Assembly: GCA_944322605.1 (NCBI GenBank)
Contig: CALUPD010000021.1
Coordinates: forward strand, 1 to 64,000
Direction of reading: 5' to 3'
Length of the DNA stretch: 64,000 nucleotides
Source: an uncultured Bacteroidales bacterium
GTDB lineage: Bacteria > Bacteroidota > Bacteroidia > Bacteroidales > UBA932
In this document: positions 10,590 through 34,732 of the stretch, piece after piece
How the letters are laid out: each line of letters begins with the position of its first letter
Position numbering within the stretch: position 1 is the stretch's first letter
The notes under the pieces: model-generated
What the model was told of the DNA's origin: nothing
The model's input: the letters and a program-made list of their open reading frames with translations, nothing else
Databases searched by the model: none
Position numbers and translations under genes: made by a program

Positions 10590-10599
10590 TTTGCTGGAC

Positions 10600-11529
10600 A
10601 TGATAGTAGCTACTACAGGTTTTTTCGACGGGGTGCATCGCGGCCACAGATATGTCTTGGACAGGATTGTAAAGGAAGCGCGCGCGAGGTGCATGGAAAG
10701 CGCGGTCATAACTTTCTGGCCTCATCCGAGAAGCGTTTTGCAGCAGGATGCGGATGAACTGAGGCTTCTTACGTCGATAGATGAAAAGAAGAAGTTGATA
10801 GAATCAGCCGGAATAGACAAGGTGTATGTCCTGGAATTCACCAAGGAGTTCAGCCGCCTGTCTGCCGAAGAGTTTCTAAGAGGATATATAAAGGAAAGGT
10901 TCAATGTGTCCGTATTTGTCGTCGGTTACGACCATAGGTTCGGAAGGACGGACGGCCCGGCCGTATCGATAAGGGACTTGTGTTCCGGATACGGGATAGA
11001 GTGCATAAATGTCCCTCCTTTTTCAGAAGGGGACGTGGTGTTCAGCTCTACGAAAATAAGGAACCTGCTTCATCAGGGCAAAATCGAAGCGGCCAATGAA
11101 ATGCTCGGGTACAGGTATTGCCTGAGCGGCGTGGTCGTGCCCGGAAAAAGGATAGGCCGGAAAATAGGATTCCCTACCGCCAACATGGAATTGTCCGATC
11201 CGAGGAAAATGGTTCCTGCAAACGGGGTATATTTCGTCCTTGCGGAAATTTCCGGCAAGCTGCACAGGGGAATATGCAATATAGGCCCGAGGCCTACCGT
11301 GGACGACGGCGAGAATGTCACGATAGAGACTCATATTATCGGTTTCGACGAGGACATATACGGATTGGACATAAGGGTCGGATTCGTCAGCAAAATGCGT
11401 GACGTGGCCAAGTTCTCTTCATTGGAAGAACTTGCAGCCCAGCTTGAAATCGACAGGCGGCATGCCGAATCATTCGGAATACCTGGACTTCCTTTTGCAG
11501 AGCCTGTTTTTATGCGTGGAATGGAATAA
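10600..11529 (+). CDS. ribF: Bifunctional riboflavin kinase / FAD synthetase
   Basis: 309 residues. The N-terminal nucleotidyltransferase half starts with TTGFFDGVHRGHR (the GFFDGxHxGH motif) and has SSTKIRNLLHQGKIEAANEM. The riboflavin kinase half has GKRIGRKIGFPTANM and the NIGPRPTVDDG / IETHIIGFDEDIYG blocks. It converts riboflavin to FMN and FAD. A TTG at 10591 is open in frame, but the ATG at 10600 places the motif as in other RibF proteins. It is the third gene of the xseA operon. Confidence 0.95.
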   Translation: MIVATTGFFDGVHRGHRYVLDRIVKEARARCMESAVITFWPHPRSVLQQDADELRLLTSIDEKKKLIESAGIDKVYVLEFTKEFSRLSAEEFLRGYIKERFNVSVFVVGYDHRFGRTDGPAVSIRDLCSGYGIECINVPPFSEGDVVFSSTKIRNLLHQGKIEAANEMLGYRYCLSGVVVPGKRIGRKIGFPTANMELSDPRKMVPANGVYFVLAEISGKLHRGICNIGPRPTVDDGENVTIETHIIGFDEDIYGLDIRVGFVSKMRDVAKFSSLEELAAQLEIDRRHAESFGIPGLPFAEPVFMRGME

Positions 11530-11531
11530 AG

Positions 11532-11562
11532 TTTGCAATTAACAAAGTTATTGCTACTTTTG
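11532..11562 (+). promoter_or_regulatory. Strong promoter upstream of the greA leader
   Basis: TTTG at 11532-11535, a 19-base spacer and TACTTTTG at 11555-11562: a full match to the Bacteroidota consensus, beginning directly after the ribF stop. The predicted start site is 215 bases before greA and only a few bases before a terminator-like hairpin. Confidence 0.65.
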
Positions 11563-11575
11563 CATAGCGATAAGA

Positions 11576-11616
11576 GAATGTGTCAAATTGAAGAATTTGG
11601 CGCATTCCTATTTTTT
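11576..11616 (+). terminator. Terminator-like hairpin just after the greA promoter
   Basis: A 14-base-pair stem (11576-11589 with 11594-11607, two G-U pairs) has the four-base loop GAAG and is followed by TATTTTTT. It may end ribF transcription. Since the promoter at 11532-11562 is upstream of it, it would also stop most transcripts from that promoter unless they read through. Confidence 0.65.
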
Positions 11617-11744
11617 AAGGTGTGAGGCATCCGTGCATGCGTTGCGCGTGGTTCGGCGGCGGCCATTGCAGGATGCGGAATCCGGCATGCGCCCGTGCAT
11701 GCGGTTTCATGGTATTGGAAAACATTAAAACGAATAAATAATGC

Positions 11745-11773
11745 GGCGGCGTGGCCCGCCTTTTAATTTTTTT
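11745..11773 (+). promoter_or_regulatory. GC hairpin plus T-run immediately before greA (possible attenuator)
   Basis: GGCGG (11745-11749) pairs with CCGCC (11756-11760) and is followed by TTTTAATTTTTTT, ending four bases before the greA ATG. It looks like a weak intrinsic terminator at the ribosome-binding position. Its use as an attenuator is inference. Confidence 0.4.
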
Positions 11774-11776
11774 ATT

Positions 11777-12247
11777 ATGTCACAGATACACTATTTAACA
11801 GCCGAAGGGCTTGAGAAACTGAGGGCCGATCTTGCTAAGCTTATAGCCCAAAGGCCTGTCATATCGAGGCAGATTGCAGAAGCGAGGGACAAAGGGGACT
11901 TGTCTGAAAATGCCGAGTACGATGCTGCCAAGGAAGCCCAGGGCTTATTGGAACTGAAAATTTCAAAACTTGAGGATACGATAGCCAATGCTCGCGTGAT
12001 CGATGAGTCCAAACTTGGCACGGACAGGGTTCAGATGCTTAATAAGGTGAAAATCAAAAATCTCAAGACCGGCGCGGTGATGGAGTACACTTTGGTCGGA
12101 GAAAGCGAAGCTAACATTGCGGAAGGCAAGCTTGCGGCTGCGACTCCGATAGGCAAGGCCCTTATCGGCAAGAAAAAGGGAGACGTGGTCGAAGTCAAGA
12201 TACCTGCCGGCCTGGTTCAGTTTGAGATACTTAATATTTCCATTTAA
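11777..12247 (+). CDS. greA: Transcription elongation factor GreA
   Basis: 156 residues, the usual length. The N-terminal coiled coil carries the tip segment DKGDLSENAEYDAAKEAQG, whose acidic residues activate transcript cleavage by RNA polymerase. The C-terminal FKBP-like domain contains ATPIGKALIGKKKGDVVEV. The frame is open upstream to an ATG at 11741, but MSQIHYLTAEGLEKL is the conserved N-terminus, so 11777 is the start. It has a 200-base leader with two terminator-like hairpins and is followed two bases later by a HIT-family gene. Confidence 0.97.
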   Translation: MSQIHYLTAEGLEKLRADLAKLIAQRPVISRQIAEARDKGDLSENAEYDAAKEAQGLLELKISKLEDTIANARVIDESKLGTDRVQMLNKVKIKNLKTGAVMEYTLVGESEANIAEGKLAAATPIGKALIGKKKGDVVEVKIPAGLVQFEILNISI

Positions 12248-16171: not shown

Positions 16172-16657
16172 TTAGAATAACCCTTTCAGATAAGGGAAGA
16201 GGGCAGGGGCGATTTTTGCTATTGCCGGATAAAGTTTCGATTCGGCGATGGCTTTTTCCGGGAGCATCGGCCATAGCGAATCGGCTTTTTCGAGAAGGAA
16301 AATGAGAACGCTTAAAATCAGAACTGTTTTCAATACGGAGAATATTATCCCAAGGGATTTGTCAAGCCATCCGAGCAGGGCGAACGACATTATTTTCCGC
16401 AATGCGGCCCCCATTATGTTCACGGCTATCAGGACAGCGATGAAAATCAGCACGAACGATATTATGGTGACGATATCTCCTTCGGCCTTGAACCAATCGG
16501 TTATGTAAGCCGAAAGCCAGTATGAGAACTTGTATGCTATGTAGGCTCCGGCGAAAATCGCTATGATGCTTGCGACCTGCCTTATGAATCCCTGGGTCGC
16601 CCCGGTGTACAAGGCTGGAATGAAGCAGCACAATAAAATTATGTCGACAACGCCCAT
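16172..16657 (-). CDS. cvpA: CvpA family membrane protein
   Basis: 161 residues with four hydrophobic helices. VVDIILLCCFIPALYTGATQGFIRQVASI at the N-terminus (quoted in part: GATQGFIRQ) and ALLGWLDKSLGIIFSVLKT match the CvpA family, known from colicin V production in E. coli and widespread in Bacteroidota. Its molecular role is not settled. It has its own promoter facing away from ileS (16719-16749). Confidence 0.85.
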   Translation of the reverse strand: MGVVDIILLCCFIPALYTGATQGFIRQVASIIAIFAGAYIAYKFSYWLSAYITDWFKAEGDIVTIISFVLIFIAVLIAVNIMGAALRKIMSFALLGWLDKSLGIIFSVLKTVLILSVLIFLLEKADSLWPMLPEKAIAESKLYPAIAKIAPALFPYLKGLF

Positions 16658-16713: not shown

Positions 16714-16745
16714 TTTGCCAAAAGTAGTTATTTATAGTATATTTG
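16714..16745 (+). promoter_or_regulatory. ileS promoter
   Basis: TTTG at 16714-16717, 20 bases, then TATATTTG at 16738-16745, a full consensus match, 23 bases before the ileS ATG. It overlaps the cvpA promoter on the other strand. Confidence 0.7.
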
Positions 16746-16749
16746 CAAA
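16719..16749 (-). promoter_or_regulatory. cvpA promoter, overlapping the ileS promoter
   Basis: On the minus strand TTTG (16749-16746), 19 bases, then TACTTTTG (16726-16719) is also a full consensus match. The -33 of each promoter touches the -7 of the other, so RNA polymerase could hardly occupy both at once. Confidence 0.65.
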
Positions 16750-16767: not shown

Positions 16768-19700
16768 ATGAAATTCGCTGAATATAAAAATCTGGATTTG
16801 GTTGGGATAAACCGGGAGATACTTGAAAAATGGCGTGCGGAATCGTGCTTCGAAAATACTTTGAAAGCAAGGGCGGGCGCGGACAAATTCATATTTTTCG
16901 AGGGCCCTCCGTCAGCCAACGGCATGCCCGGGATACATCATGTCATGGCAAGGGCGATAAAAGACGCTTTTTGCCGCTATAAGACACAGAGAGGATACCT
17001 TGTGAACCGCAAGGCCGGATGGGACACTCACGGATTGCCCGTAGAGCTCGGCGTGGAGAAAATGCTGGGGATAACCAAAGAGGATATAGGCAAGAAGATT
17101 TCTATCGAGGATTATAATGCGGCCTGCAGGAAGGAGGTGATGAAATATACCAAGGAATGGGTGAATCTTACTGAAAGGATCGGCTATTGGGTGGATATGG
17201 AAAACCCGTACATAACCTATGACAACAGGTACATAGAGACTCTTTGGTATCTTTTGAAGGACATATACGGAAAAGGCCTGCTATACAAGGGATATACGAT
17301 TCAGCCTTATTCGCCTGCGGCAGGAACGGGCCTCAGTTCCCATGAGTTGAACCAGCCGGGATGCTACAGGGATGTCAAGGATACGACAGCCGTTGTCCAG
17401 TTCAGGATAATAAGGAACAGTTCATCCGAGTTTCTGTTCGACGACAGCGGTGTGCCTGCGCATTTTCTGGCGTGGACTACGACTCCGTGGACATTGCCGT
17501 CCAATACCGCATTATGCGTCGGCCCGCAGATAACATACGTAAGGGTCAGGTCGTATAATCCGTACACAGGCGATCCGGCTGTCTATGTCGTTGCAGAGTC
17601 TCTTGTGGATTCGGTATTCAATCCGAAAGCCAAAGGCATTGCAATCGAGGATTATAAGCCGGGCGACAAGCTTGTGCCTTACAAGGTTCTCGACGGGAAG
17701 TTCAAGGGAAGCGAATTGACAGGAATATCATACGAGCAGCTTATTCCGTGGTTCAGGCCTGATGACGGAGCATTCAGGGTGATTCCGGGCGATTATGTCA
17801 CGACTGAAGAAGGGACGACAGGCGTCGTGCATATAGCGCCGACTTTCGGAGCGGACGACAGCAAGGTTGCCAAGGCTACAGGCGTTCCTCCTTTGATGGT
17901 GATCGACAAGAATGGCGAAAAGCAGGCCCAGGTAGACAGGAAAGGCCGCTTTTACCGCATAGAGGATATGGATCCGGAATACGTAAGGGAAAGGGTTTCT
18001 CCTGCTTATAACGAGTTTGCCGGCAGGTACGTGAAGAATGCCTATGATCCGGATCTCGGTCCTGACGATCCTACCCTTGACATTGATTTGTGCGTGATGC
18101 TGAAGCAGCAAGGTCTCGCTTTCAAGATTGAAAAGCAAGTCCATTCGTATCCGCATTGCTGGAGAACAGACAAGCCGGTTCTGTATTACCCTTTGGATTC
18201 GTGGTTCATAAAAACGACGGCAGTGCAGGACAGGCTCATGGAATTGAACAAAACCATAAATTGGAAGCCTGAATCCACAGGGAGCGGAAGGTTCGGAAAA
18301 TGGCTTGAGAACCTTCAGGACTGGAATTTGTCGCGAAGCAGGTATTGGGGAACACCTCTTCCTATATGGAGGACCGAGGACGGCTCTGAGGAAAAGTGCA
18401 TAGGCTCCGTTAAGGAATTGTATTGCGAAATAGAAAAATCCGTTGCTGCCGGCTTGATGAAAACCAATCCTTTCAAGGATGCGGGATTCAATCCTGACGA
18501 CATGTCGAAAGAAAATTATGACAGGATAGATTTGCACAGGCCTTATGTGGATGACCTGATATTGGTTTCCGATTCCGGACGTCCGATGAGGAGGGAACCT
18601 GACATAATCGATGTATGGTTTGATTCGGGGTCCATGCCGTATGCTCAGGAAGGGCTTGCCAATCTCGGAACGGACAGGTTCGGGCAGACTGCGGATTTCA
18701 TAGCAGAAGGCGTGGATCAGACCAGGGGATGGTTTTTCACCTTGCATGCGATTTCTACCATGGTCAGCGACAAGGTTGCATTCAAGACGGTGCTCTCCAA
18801 CGGGCTTGTGCTCGACAAGGACGGAAACAAGATGAGCAAACGTCTCGGCAATGCGGTGGATCCGTTTGACGCTCTTGACAGGTACGGCGCGGATTCGTTG
18901 AGATGGTACATGCTCACGAATTCACAGCCGTGGGATAATCTGAAATTCGATTTTGCCGGAGTGGATGAAGTCAAAAGGAAATTCTTCGGCACGCTGTACA
19001 ATACATATTCTTTCTTTGCCCTTTACGCGAATGTGGACGGATTCGATGCGAAAGCTGCCGAAATTCCGGTAGAAAAAAGGCCGGAAATAGACAGATGGAT
19101 AATATCCCTTTTGAACACGCTCGTGAAAAATGTCGTGGATTCATACGAGAATTACGATGTTACCGGCGCAGGAAGGATGATAAGCGATTTCGTATGCGAT
19201 CACCTGAGCAATTGGTACGTAAGGCTGAACCGCAAGCGTTACTGGGGAGGCAAGATGGATGAAGACAAGCTCGCTGCATATCAGACTTTGTATTCATGCC
19301 TGGAAACAGTCGCTATCCTGGCCGCACCAATAGCTCCTTTCTTCATGGAAAGGCTGTTCCTCGACCTTAATGCCGTATCAGGAAAGCATAAGGAATCCAC
19401 GGTGCACGCGGTTCTTATGCCGGAAGCAGACGAATCCCTTGTGGACAAGGCTCTTGAGGAAAGGATGGACTTGGCGCAGAAGAGTTCTTCGATGATACTT
19501 GCGCTGAGAAGGAAAGTGAATATAAAAGTAAGGCAGCCTCTTGCCAAGATAGTGATTCCGGTGATAGATCCGAAATTGCGCGACCAGTTCGAGAAAATAG
19601 AGCAACTTGTTCTTAATGAAGTGAATGTCAAGTCTGTGGAATTCATAAACGATACTACGGGGATCATAACGAAGAAGATCAAGCCTAATTTCAAGACCCT

Positions 19701-33905: not shown

Positions 33906-33931
33906 GATAATTGAATGGTTGGTAAGTATTA

Positions 33932-33963
33932 CAAATATACGCAGAAGCCGAGCGCAGAGCAAA
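33932..33963 (-). promoter_or_regulatory. Promoter of the BACON lipoprotein, -33 box inside a repeat copy
   Basis: On the minus strand TTTG (33963-33960), 20 bases, then TATATTTG (33939-33932), a full consensus match 27 bases before the ATG. The TTTG belongs to the palindrome AGCAAAT-TT-ATTTGCT of the first repeat unit, so the repeat supplies half of the promoter. Confidence 0.6.
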
Positions 33964-34210
33964 TTTATTTGCTATGCCTCAGGCGCGACAGTATATGTGG
34001 CCCGGAGGGTCAAATTGCGCAGAAGCCGAGCGCAGAGCAAATTTATTTGCTATGCCGAGGCGCGACAGTATATGTGGCCCGGAGGGGCAAATTGCGCAGA
34101 AGCCGAGCGCAGAGCAAATTTATTTGCTATGCCTCAGGCGCGACAGTATATGTGGCCCGGAGGGGCATAAGCTTGGTTCAAAGCAAATTTAATTGCGCTG
34201 GCCGGGGCAT
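33940..34210. repeat. Tandem hairpin repeat array 2 (77-78 bp units)
   Basis: Three near-identical units begin with AAGCCGAGCGCAG at 33945, 34023 and 34100. Each continues with the palindrome AGCAAAT-TT-ATTTGCT, then ATGCC(GA or TCA)GGCGCGACAG, TATATGTGGCCCGGAGGGGC and AAATTGCGC. A fourth, decayed copy follows near 34170 (AAGCTTGGTTCAAAGC, TGGCCGGGGC). The array fills the gap between aroK and the BACON gene, both on the minus strand. A reading frame crosses it but only translates the repeat. Confidence 0.9.
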
Positions 34211-34237
34211 GGATATGCCGGACTGTAAGGCCGGTTG

Positions 34238-34732
34238 TCAGCCGGCAATGTAGGAATAATCCGTGACGTCGATAATTATGTCCGCTATTCTTCTATAGGC
34301 AGAGTCCCTCTTTTTTTTCAGCTCGGACATGTAACGGAAAATGCCGTCGCCGTCAAGGCCTTTGAGCAGGGGCCTGTCGCCGTATCCGTATTCAATTAGG
34401 TTTTCAGTGATTTTTTCGACGCTTGCGTCAAGATAGACGTTCAGGCAGTTTTTCCTGAGTAGCTTAGCCGATTTTTCATAGGTCGGAGTTCCTCCTCCGA
34501 GAGACAGGACGATGTCCTTGCCATGCTTTTCCATTATCCGTAGAAGGTAAAGGTATTCCATCTCCCGGAATACGGTTTCTCCGGATTCGGCGAAGATTCC
34601 GGAGACCGTTTTTCCTTCATTTGCCGTTATGTACATGTCGAGGTCGATGAATTCGTATCCGAGATATTCCGAAAGCTCGATGCCTATGGAGCTTTTGCCT
34701 ACGCCCATCAGTCCTGACAATGCAATTATCAT
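34238..34732 (-). CDS. aroK: Shikimate kinase
   Basis: 164 residues. The Walker A loop GLMGVGKSSIGIEL is at residue 7, FIDLDMYI has the shikimate-binding Asp, and SGETVFREMEY and LGGGTPTYE are the other substrate-binding blocks. DRPLL marks the lid region. It phosphorylates shikimate. It is the last gene of the rluB-era-parC-aroK run and ends beside repeat array 2. Confidence 0.94.
   Translation of the reverse strand: MIIALSGLMGVGKSSIGIELSEYLGYEFIDLDMYITANEGKTVSGIFAESGETVFREMEYLYLLRIMEKHGKDIVLSLGGGTPTYEKSAKLLRKNCLNVYLDASVEKITENLIEYGYGDRPLLKGLDGDGIFRYMSELKKKRDSAYRRIADIIIDVTDYSYIAG

Follow-up and report, generated by a model that had tools for sequence, protein, structure and literature searches.

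A putative promoter-proximal transcription attenuator in the greA leader of Bacteroidota

The gene for the transcript cleavage factor GreA lies, in the Bacteroidales genome considered here (1.87 Mb in 40 contigs), behind a housekeeping promoter that is followed at once by what looks like an intrinsic terminator. Such an order raises the question of what a terminator is doing a few nucleotides after the start of a transcript: it may control greA by early termination, as the GraL leader does in E. coli, or it may simply end the upstream gene, ribF. The features that bear on this question, all within the window (the whole stretch of 64,000 nt that was analysed), are as follows.

10591 to 11529, plus strand: ribF, the upstream gene, an open reading frame with its TAA stop at 11527-11529
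11532 to 11562, plus strand: Bacteroidota housekeeping promoter, exact consensus, with the -33 TTTG at 11532-11535 and the -7 box TACTTTTG at 11555-11562
11567 to 11616, plus strand: predicted terminated leader RNA of about 50 nt, placed from the promoter and the T-run
11576 to 11607, plus strand: hairpin 1, a putative promoter-proximal intrinsic terminator of 14 bp with a 4-nt loop, its position conserved in relatives
11611 to 11616, plus strand: T-run of hairpin 1, read from the sequence
11617 to 11740, plus strand: spacer between the hairpin 1 terminator and greA, species-specific and without a counterpart in the single sister genome compared
11745 to 11760, plus strand: hairpin 2, a weak 5-bp GC stem, at chance level when taken alone
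11761 to 11773, plus strand: T-rich stretch TTTTAATTTTTTT 5' of greA, resembling the U-tract or initiation region of the family
11777 to 12247, plus strand: greA, encoding GreA (156 aa), with its ATG at 11777

The promoter between ribF and greA matches the pattern TTTG-N19-TACTTTTG exactly. Matches to this consensus are enriched both in the window, where there are 6 versus 0.96 expected from shuffling, and in the genome, where the 135 matches are about five times commoner than the 26 found with the reversed pattern. The box TAnnTTTG occupies -12 to -5 in Flavobacterium psychrophilum (PMC9723704), and the +1 of greA is therefore expected here at about 11567. (Two other places in the window also carry consensus promoters. 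At 16714-16749, a stretch of 36 bp holds two overlapping TTTG-N-TANNTTTG promoters, one on each strand; it lies between divergent open reading frames, one at 16172-16657 on the minus strand and ileS, which begins at 16768 on the plus strand. At 33920-34250, tandem units of about 85 nt (gggccacatatactgtcgcgcc...tttgctctgcgctcggcttctgcg) end in a consensus promoter, after which comes a lipoprotein-like open reading frame; the 24-mer GCTCTSGGCTTCTGCGTATATTTG of this unit occurs at 18 places in the genome versus 0 in the reversed control, and the unit is a promoter-bearing repeat.)

Hairpin 1 starts 5-10 nt past the expected +1. Its 14 pairs and 4-nt loop are followed by CTATTTTTTA, the whole terminator spanning 11576-11616, and its ΔG is -17.3 kcal/mol; when the leader was dinucleotide-shuffled 300 times, a terminator as strong arose once. 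The predicted leader RNA folds at -18.3 kcal/mol. Folded as a whole, the 210-nt leader does not exceed its shuffles (z of -1.1), and therefore only hairpin 1 carries a signal. Both the perfect promoter and the 14-bp hairpin with T-run directly after it, on which the original prediction was built, are thus present in the DNA and stand out from shuffled sequence. The resulting anatomy resembles that of GraL: a hairpin and T-tract of the intrinsic type lie a few to 20 nt after +1, on the same strand as greA, in its 5' UTR and within the first 100 nt of the predicted transcript, and the length of the predicted terminated RNA falls within the 37-59 nt covered by the GraL RNAs of E. coli (37-47 and 49-59 nt; PMC6829880). 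At the gathering score, Rfam gives no match in this stretch or in 18 relatives.

The second hairpin fares differently. The original prediction had placed a further GC hairpin and T-run before greA, and these exist (five G-C pairs, a loop of 6, then TTTTAATTTTTTT; ΔG of -7.7 kcal/mol), although the T-rich stretch ends three bases, not four, before the ATG. A role as a genuine second terminator finds no support beyond chance, as 105 of 300 shuffles contain a hairpin at least as good. The tail of hairpin 2, TTTTAATTTTTTTATTATG, resembles a stretch, TTTTTAATTTTT..ATG, that is conserved 5' of greA in the family, and, with two genomes to compare, either hairpin 2 may be the remnant of an old terminator site or the TTTTAATTTTTTTATTATG stretch may be kept for translation. 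The region is set apart from hairpin 1 by the spacer of about 125 bp, which is absent from the only sister genome compared (L170); its origin as a repeated element is rejected, as it has a single weak 36-nt match elsewhere in the genome. The spacer also contains a 39-codon open reading frame with a GTG start (11622-11741), whose TAA overlaps an ATG at 11741; that ATG belongs to a longer greA frame, in which MRRRGPPFNFFI precedes the conserved MSQIHYLT. The 39-codon frame could be due to chance or be a coupled small one.

To place the locus among its relatives, 170 greA loci were collected from the family, the wider Bacteroidota and samples of the phylum. (These loci are not phylogenetically independent, and include a few genomes present twice, e.g. 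L002/L170 and L009/L031; distant taxa, however, have hairpins of entirely different sequence.) A terminator finder made for the survey, which seeks a hairpin and T-tract within 250 nt of greA, recovers the GraL terminator of E. coli at -18.6 kcal/mol, and finds a terminator-like hairpin in 157 of the 170 loci across Bacteroidota. Within the class Bacteroidia, the stem follows a -7 box by 8-40 nt in 115 of 150 loci (42/50 in the family, 60/80 in the wider set and 13/20 in the class sample), versus about 0.3 expected from dinucleotide shuffles (0.1, 0.2 and 0.0, respectively). The -33 TTTG is correctly spaced in 42 of 120 greA leaders, versus 4.7 expected. Outside this class the promoter box differs, and the -7 box is found at this spacing in 2 of 20 loci.

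Control genes behave otherwise. Among 1,134 of them, drawn from the other genes of the surveyed regions and about 464 kb of the source genome, 4 (0.4%) have a terminator at this distance behind a -7 box; the same 4 are counted against the 284 that have a -7 box upstream at all. In the source genome itself, greA is the only one of 324 predicted genes in those 464 kb with this order. For terminators alone, greA loci chosen across families from an evenly drawn phylum sample were set against control genes with wide intergenic regions, about a quarter of which have any terminator: in the class Bacteroidia, 19 of 20 greA loci versus 39 of 140 controls (Fisher p = 7e-9), and in other classes 17 of 20 versus 36 of 140 (p = 5e-7). 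Across the surveyed loci the predicted terminated RNA has a median length of about 46 nt (range 29-83). The family sequence 5' of greA reads TANNTTTGCA..AAAGGGTCCCG(loop)CGGGATTCTTTTTAATTTTT..ATG, and a related hairpin, GAGTTCCG(loop)CGGAATTCTTTTTT, is found across Bacteroidales and as far as a Chitinophaga genome bin, whereas in Flavobacteriales and other groups the hairpins at this position are for the most part unrelated. Taken together, these comparisons argue strongly that a promoter-then-terminator unit is conserved with greA across Bacteroidota. The suggestion that greA is subject here to early termination by an independent design similar to GraL draws strong support from them, the counts lying far above the controls.

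The stem itself covaries. In an alignment of 49 hairpins (A1), two-sided changes that preserve pairing are seen at 10 of 11 pairs; 0 of 500 shuffles reach the observed value, and slid controls are much lower. The aligned sequences were picked for having hairpins, which inflates the paired fraction, but this choice alone does not explain the compensatory changes. In addition, a G-U pair near the stem base (columns 15/42) is kept in 43 of the 49, and the 3' arm GGRATTC with its T-tract is nearly invariant against a variable 5' arm; this suggests that the release point is constrained in sequence as well as in pairing. When a covariance model of the family hairpin was run on 60 family genomes, the 28 best hits all lay directly upstream of greA. 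The same model has no hit in the source genome because hairpin 1 has diverged in sequence from the family hairpin, though it keeps the slot right after the promoter; its homology therefore rests on that position.

These results lead to a reading that we consider probable: the leader would be a promoter-proximal transcription attenuator of greA of the GraL type, with feedback proposed by analogy with E. coli. RNA polymerase would start at about 11567, copy about 50 nt and meet the intrinsic terminator at 11576-11616. There a large share of the transcripts would be released, the fraction reading through would become greA mRNA, and the level of GreA would be tuned by how often polymerase passes. 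Termination at hairpin 1 in cells is presumed from its form and place. As for the signal, GreA of E. coli lowers greA expression through GraL in cis, for which cleavage-competent GreA is needed, and deletion of greA lowers GraL about fourfold, although the effect of GreA was seen there in vivo and not in vitro (PMC6829880); by this analogy, cleavage-competent GreA would raise termination, and greA would limit its own expression. The space available points the same way. The stem begins a median of 5 nt after +1 and has a median pair probability of 0.96, so there is no room upstream for an antiterminator, an aptamer or riboswitch, or a leader peptide, all of which are rejected for most loci. With competing folds thus left out, the regulated variable is likely to be the behaviour of polymerase in early elongation, and with little space for any other sensor, GreA is the proposed signal, as the original prediction had tentatively suggested. 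A GreA feedback loop would be the most economical reading of the Bacteroidota leader.

An attenuator of the same anatomy that answers to something other than GreA (the supply of UTP or other NTPs, another secondary-channel factor, NusG/NusA or Rho) is an unlikely but serious alternative. The anatomy does not name its signal, and termination at U-tracts is sensitive to NTPs in known systems. Even for E. coli an accessory factor has been invoked; Nus factors, however, have no effect there (PMC6829880). The restriction of the arrangement to greA among the 324 genes sampled in the source genome, and its phylum-wide tie to that gene, favour feedback specific to greA.

It is improbable that the 5' hairpin does not terminate at all, and instead shields the 5' end of the mRNA or aids translation, the T-rich stretch being an initiation region. 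Bacteroidota mRNAs lack Shine-Dalgarno sequences (PMC7366714), and close relatives have 5-15 nt between the end of the T-tract and the ATG, as would be expected of a translation signal. In many species, however, this distance exceeds 30 nt, and the T-tract therefore goes with the hairpin rather than with the start codon; moreover, other genes with the same promoter lack the hairpin and T-tract.

More improbable still is the alternative already raised by the original prediction, that hairpin 1 is a plain ribF terminator, in which case greA would be transcribed by read-through or from another start. Hairpin 1 has an ordinary terminator form and begins 47 nt past the ribF stop, but it lies downstream of a consensus promoter, an order as rare among control genes as given above, where even wide intergenic regions have a terminator in about one case in four. 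The upstream genes of the relatives also speak against this account. A ribF homologue precedes greA in only 10 surveyed loci, the upstream proteins form 73 clusters, many being singletons, and where the upstream gene is divergent (47 loci) the hairpin is kept in 42, these strands and clusters coming from simple ORF calling that makes the counts approximate. The promoter and hairpin thus stand behind many unrelated and divergent genes, and are therefore not merely the end of ribF. Conversely, five family loci in which greA lies close behind its upstream gene (L003, L005, L006, L014 and L152) have neither promoter nor leader hairpin, and are natural losses of the leader. Because the unit is kept behind varied upstream genes and lost where greA joins one, it belongs to greA; hairpin 1 may nevertheless have a side role in ending ribF read-through. 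Finally, that the leader serves mainly to make a short RNA which works in trans on further mRNAs, as E. coli GraL does on nudE (PMC6829880), is equally hard to credit, given that the loop and 5' segment vary freely among relatives, the latter often being a few nt long, and therefore no conserved seed region is seen.

If the attenuator reading is correct, control of greA by a promoter-proximal terminator might, as a tentative generalization, be an ancient or repeatedly evolved rule in Bacteroidota and, going by earlier reports, in Proteobacteria and Firmicutes, in which the sensor reads the state of RNA polymerase without a ligand or an alternative RNA fold. Autoregulation of greA through GraL has so far been an oddity of E. 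coli with an unclear mechanism; that a minimal leader is kept throughout a phylum whose sigma factor differs suggests that the feedback is a general principle. The many natural differences in terminator, spacing and U-tract should help to find what GreA acts on, and the start-site and small-RNA maps that exist for Bacteroides thetaiotaomicron (Theta-Base; PMC7366714, PMC10994844) leave the model open to testing there.

How does this leader compare with known systems? Terminators 5' of greA are already known elsewhere; the Bacteroidota leader is absent from Rfam and was not found described in the literature searched, where no paper links greA, an intrinsic terminator and Bacteroidota (the supplementary tables of the B. 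thetaiotaomicron and F. psychrophilum maps could list it). The structured 5' regions of F. psychrophilum (PMC9723704) are likewise cis-regulatory RNAs of Bacteroidota with no Rfam match; no mention of greA was found in that paper's main text, and its supplementary table may list it. The greA- and rnk-leaders of Naville and Gautheret (2010, PMC2965389) share 5' terminators upstream of greA that are conserved within taxa, in this case Proteobacteria, Bacilli and Clostridia; Bacteroidetes are not mentioned in the main text. Those leaders each have an antiterminator structure, whereas the Bacteroidota leader usually has no room for one. The closest parallel is E. coli GraL (Potrykus 2010; Dylewski 2019, PMC6829880). 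A GraL-type leader is defined in cells by a short RNA at which about two thirds of transcripts end, and by read-through that falls with catalytically active GreA; the Bacteroidota leader, in contrast, is known from its sequence, has a different sigma factor and promoter, and in the source species carries the added spacer and weak second hairpin. By inspection, no sequence similarity is evident between the E. coli GraL leader and the Bacteroidota consensus. What the two share is the arrangement: a promoter with an intrinsic terminator directly after it, in the 5' UTR of greA, little RNA before the stem, and a short RNA of similar length, 37-59 nt for GraL and a predicted 46-50 nt or so here.
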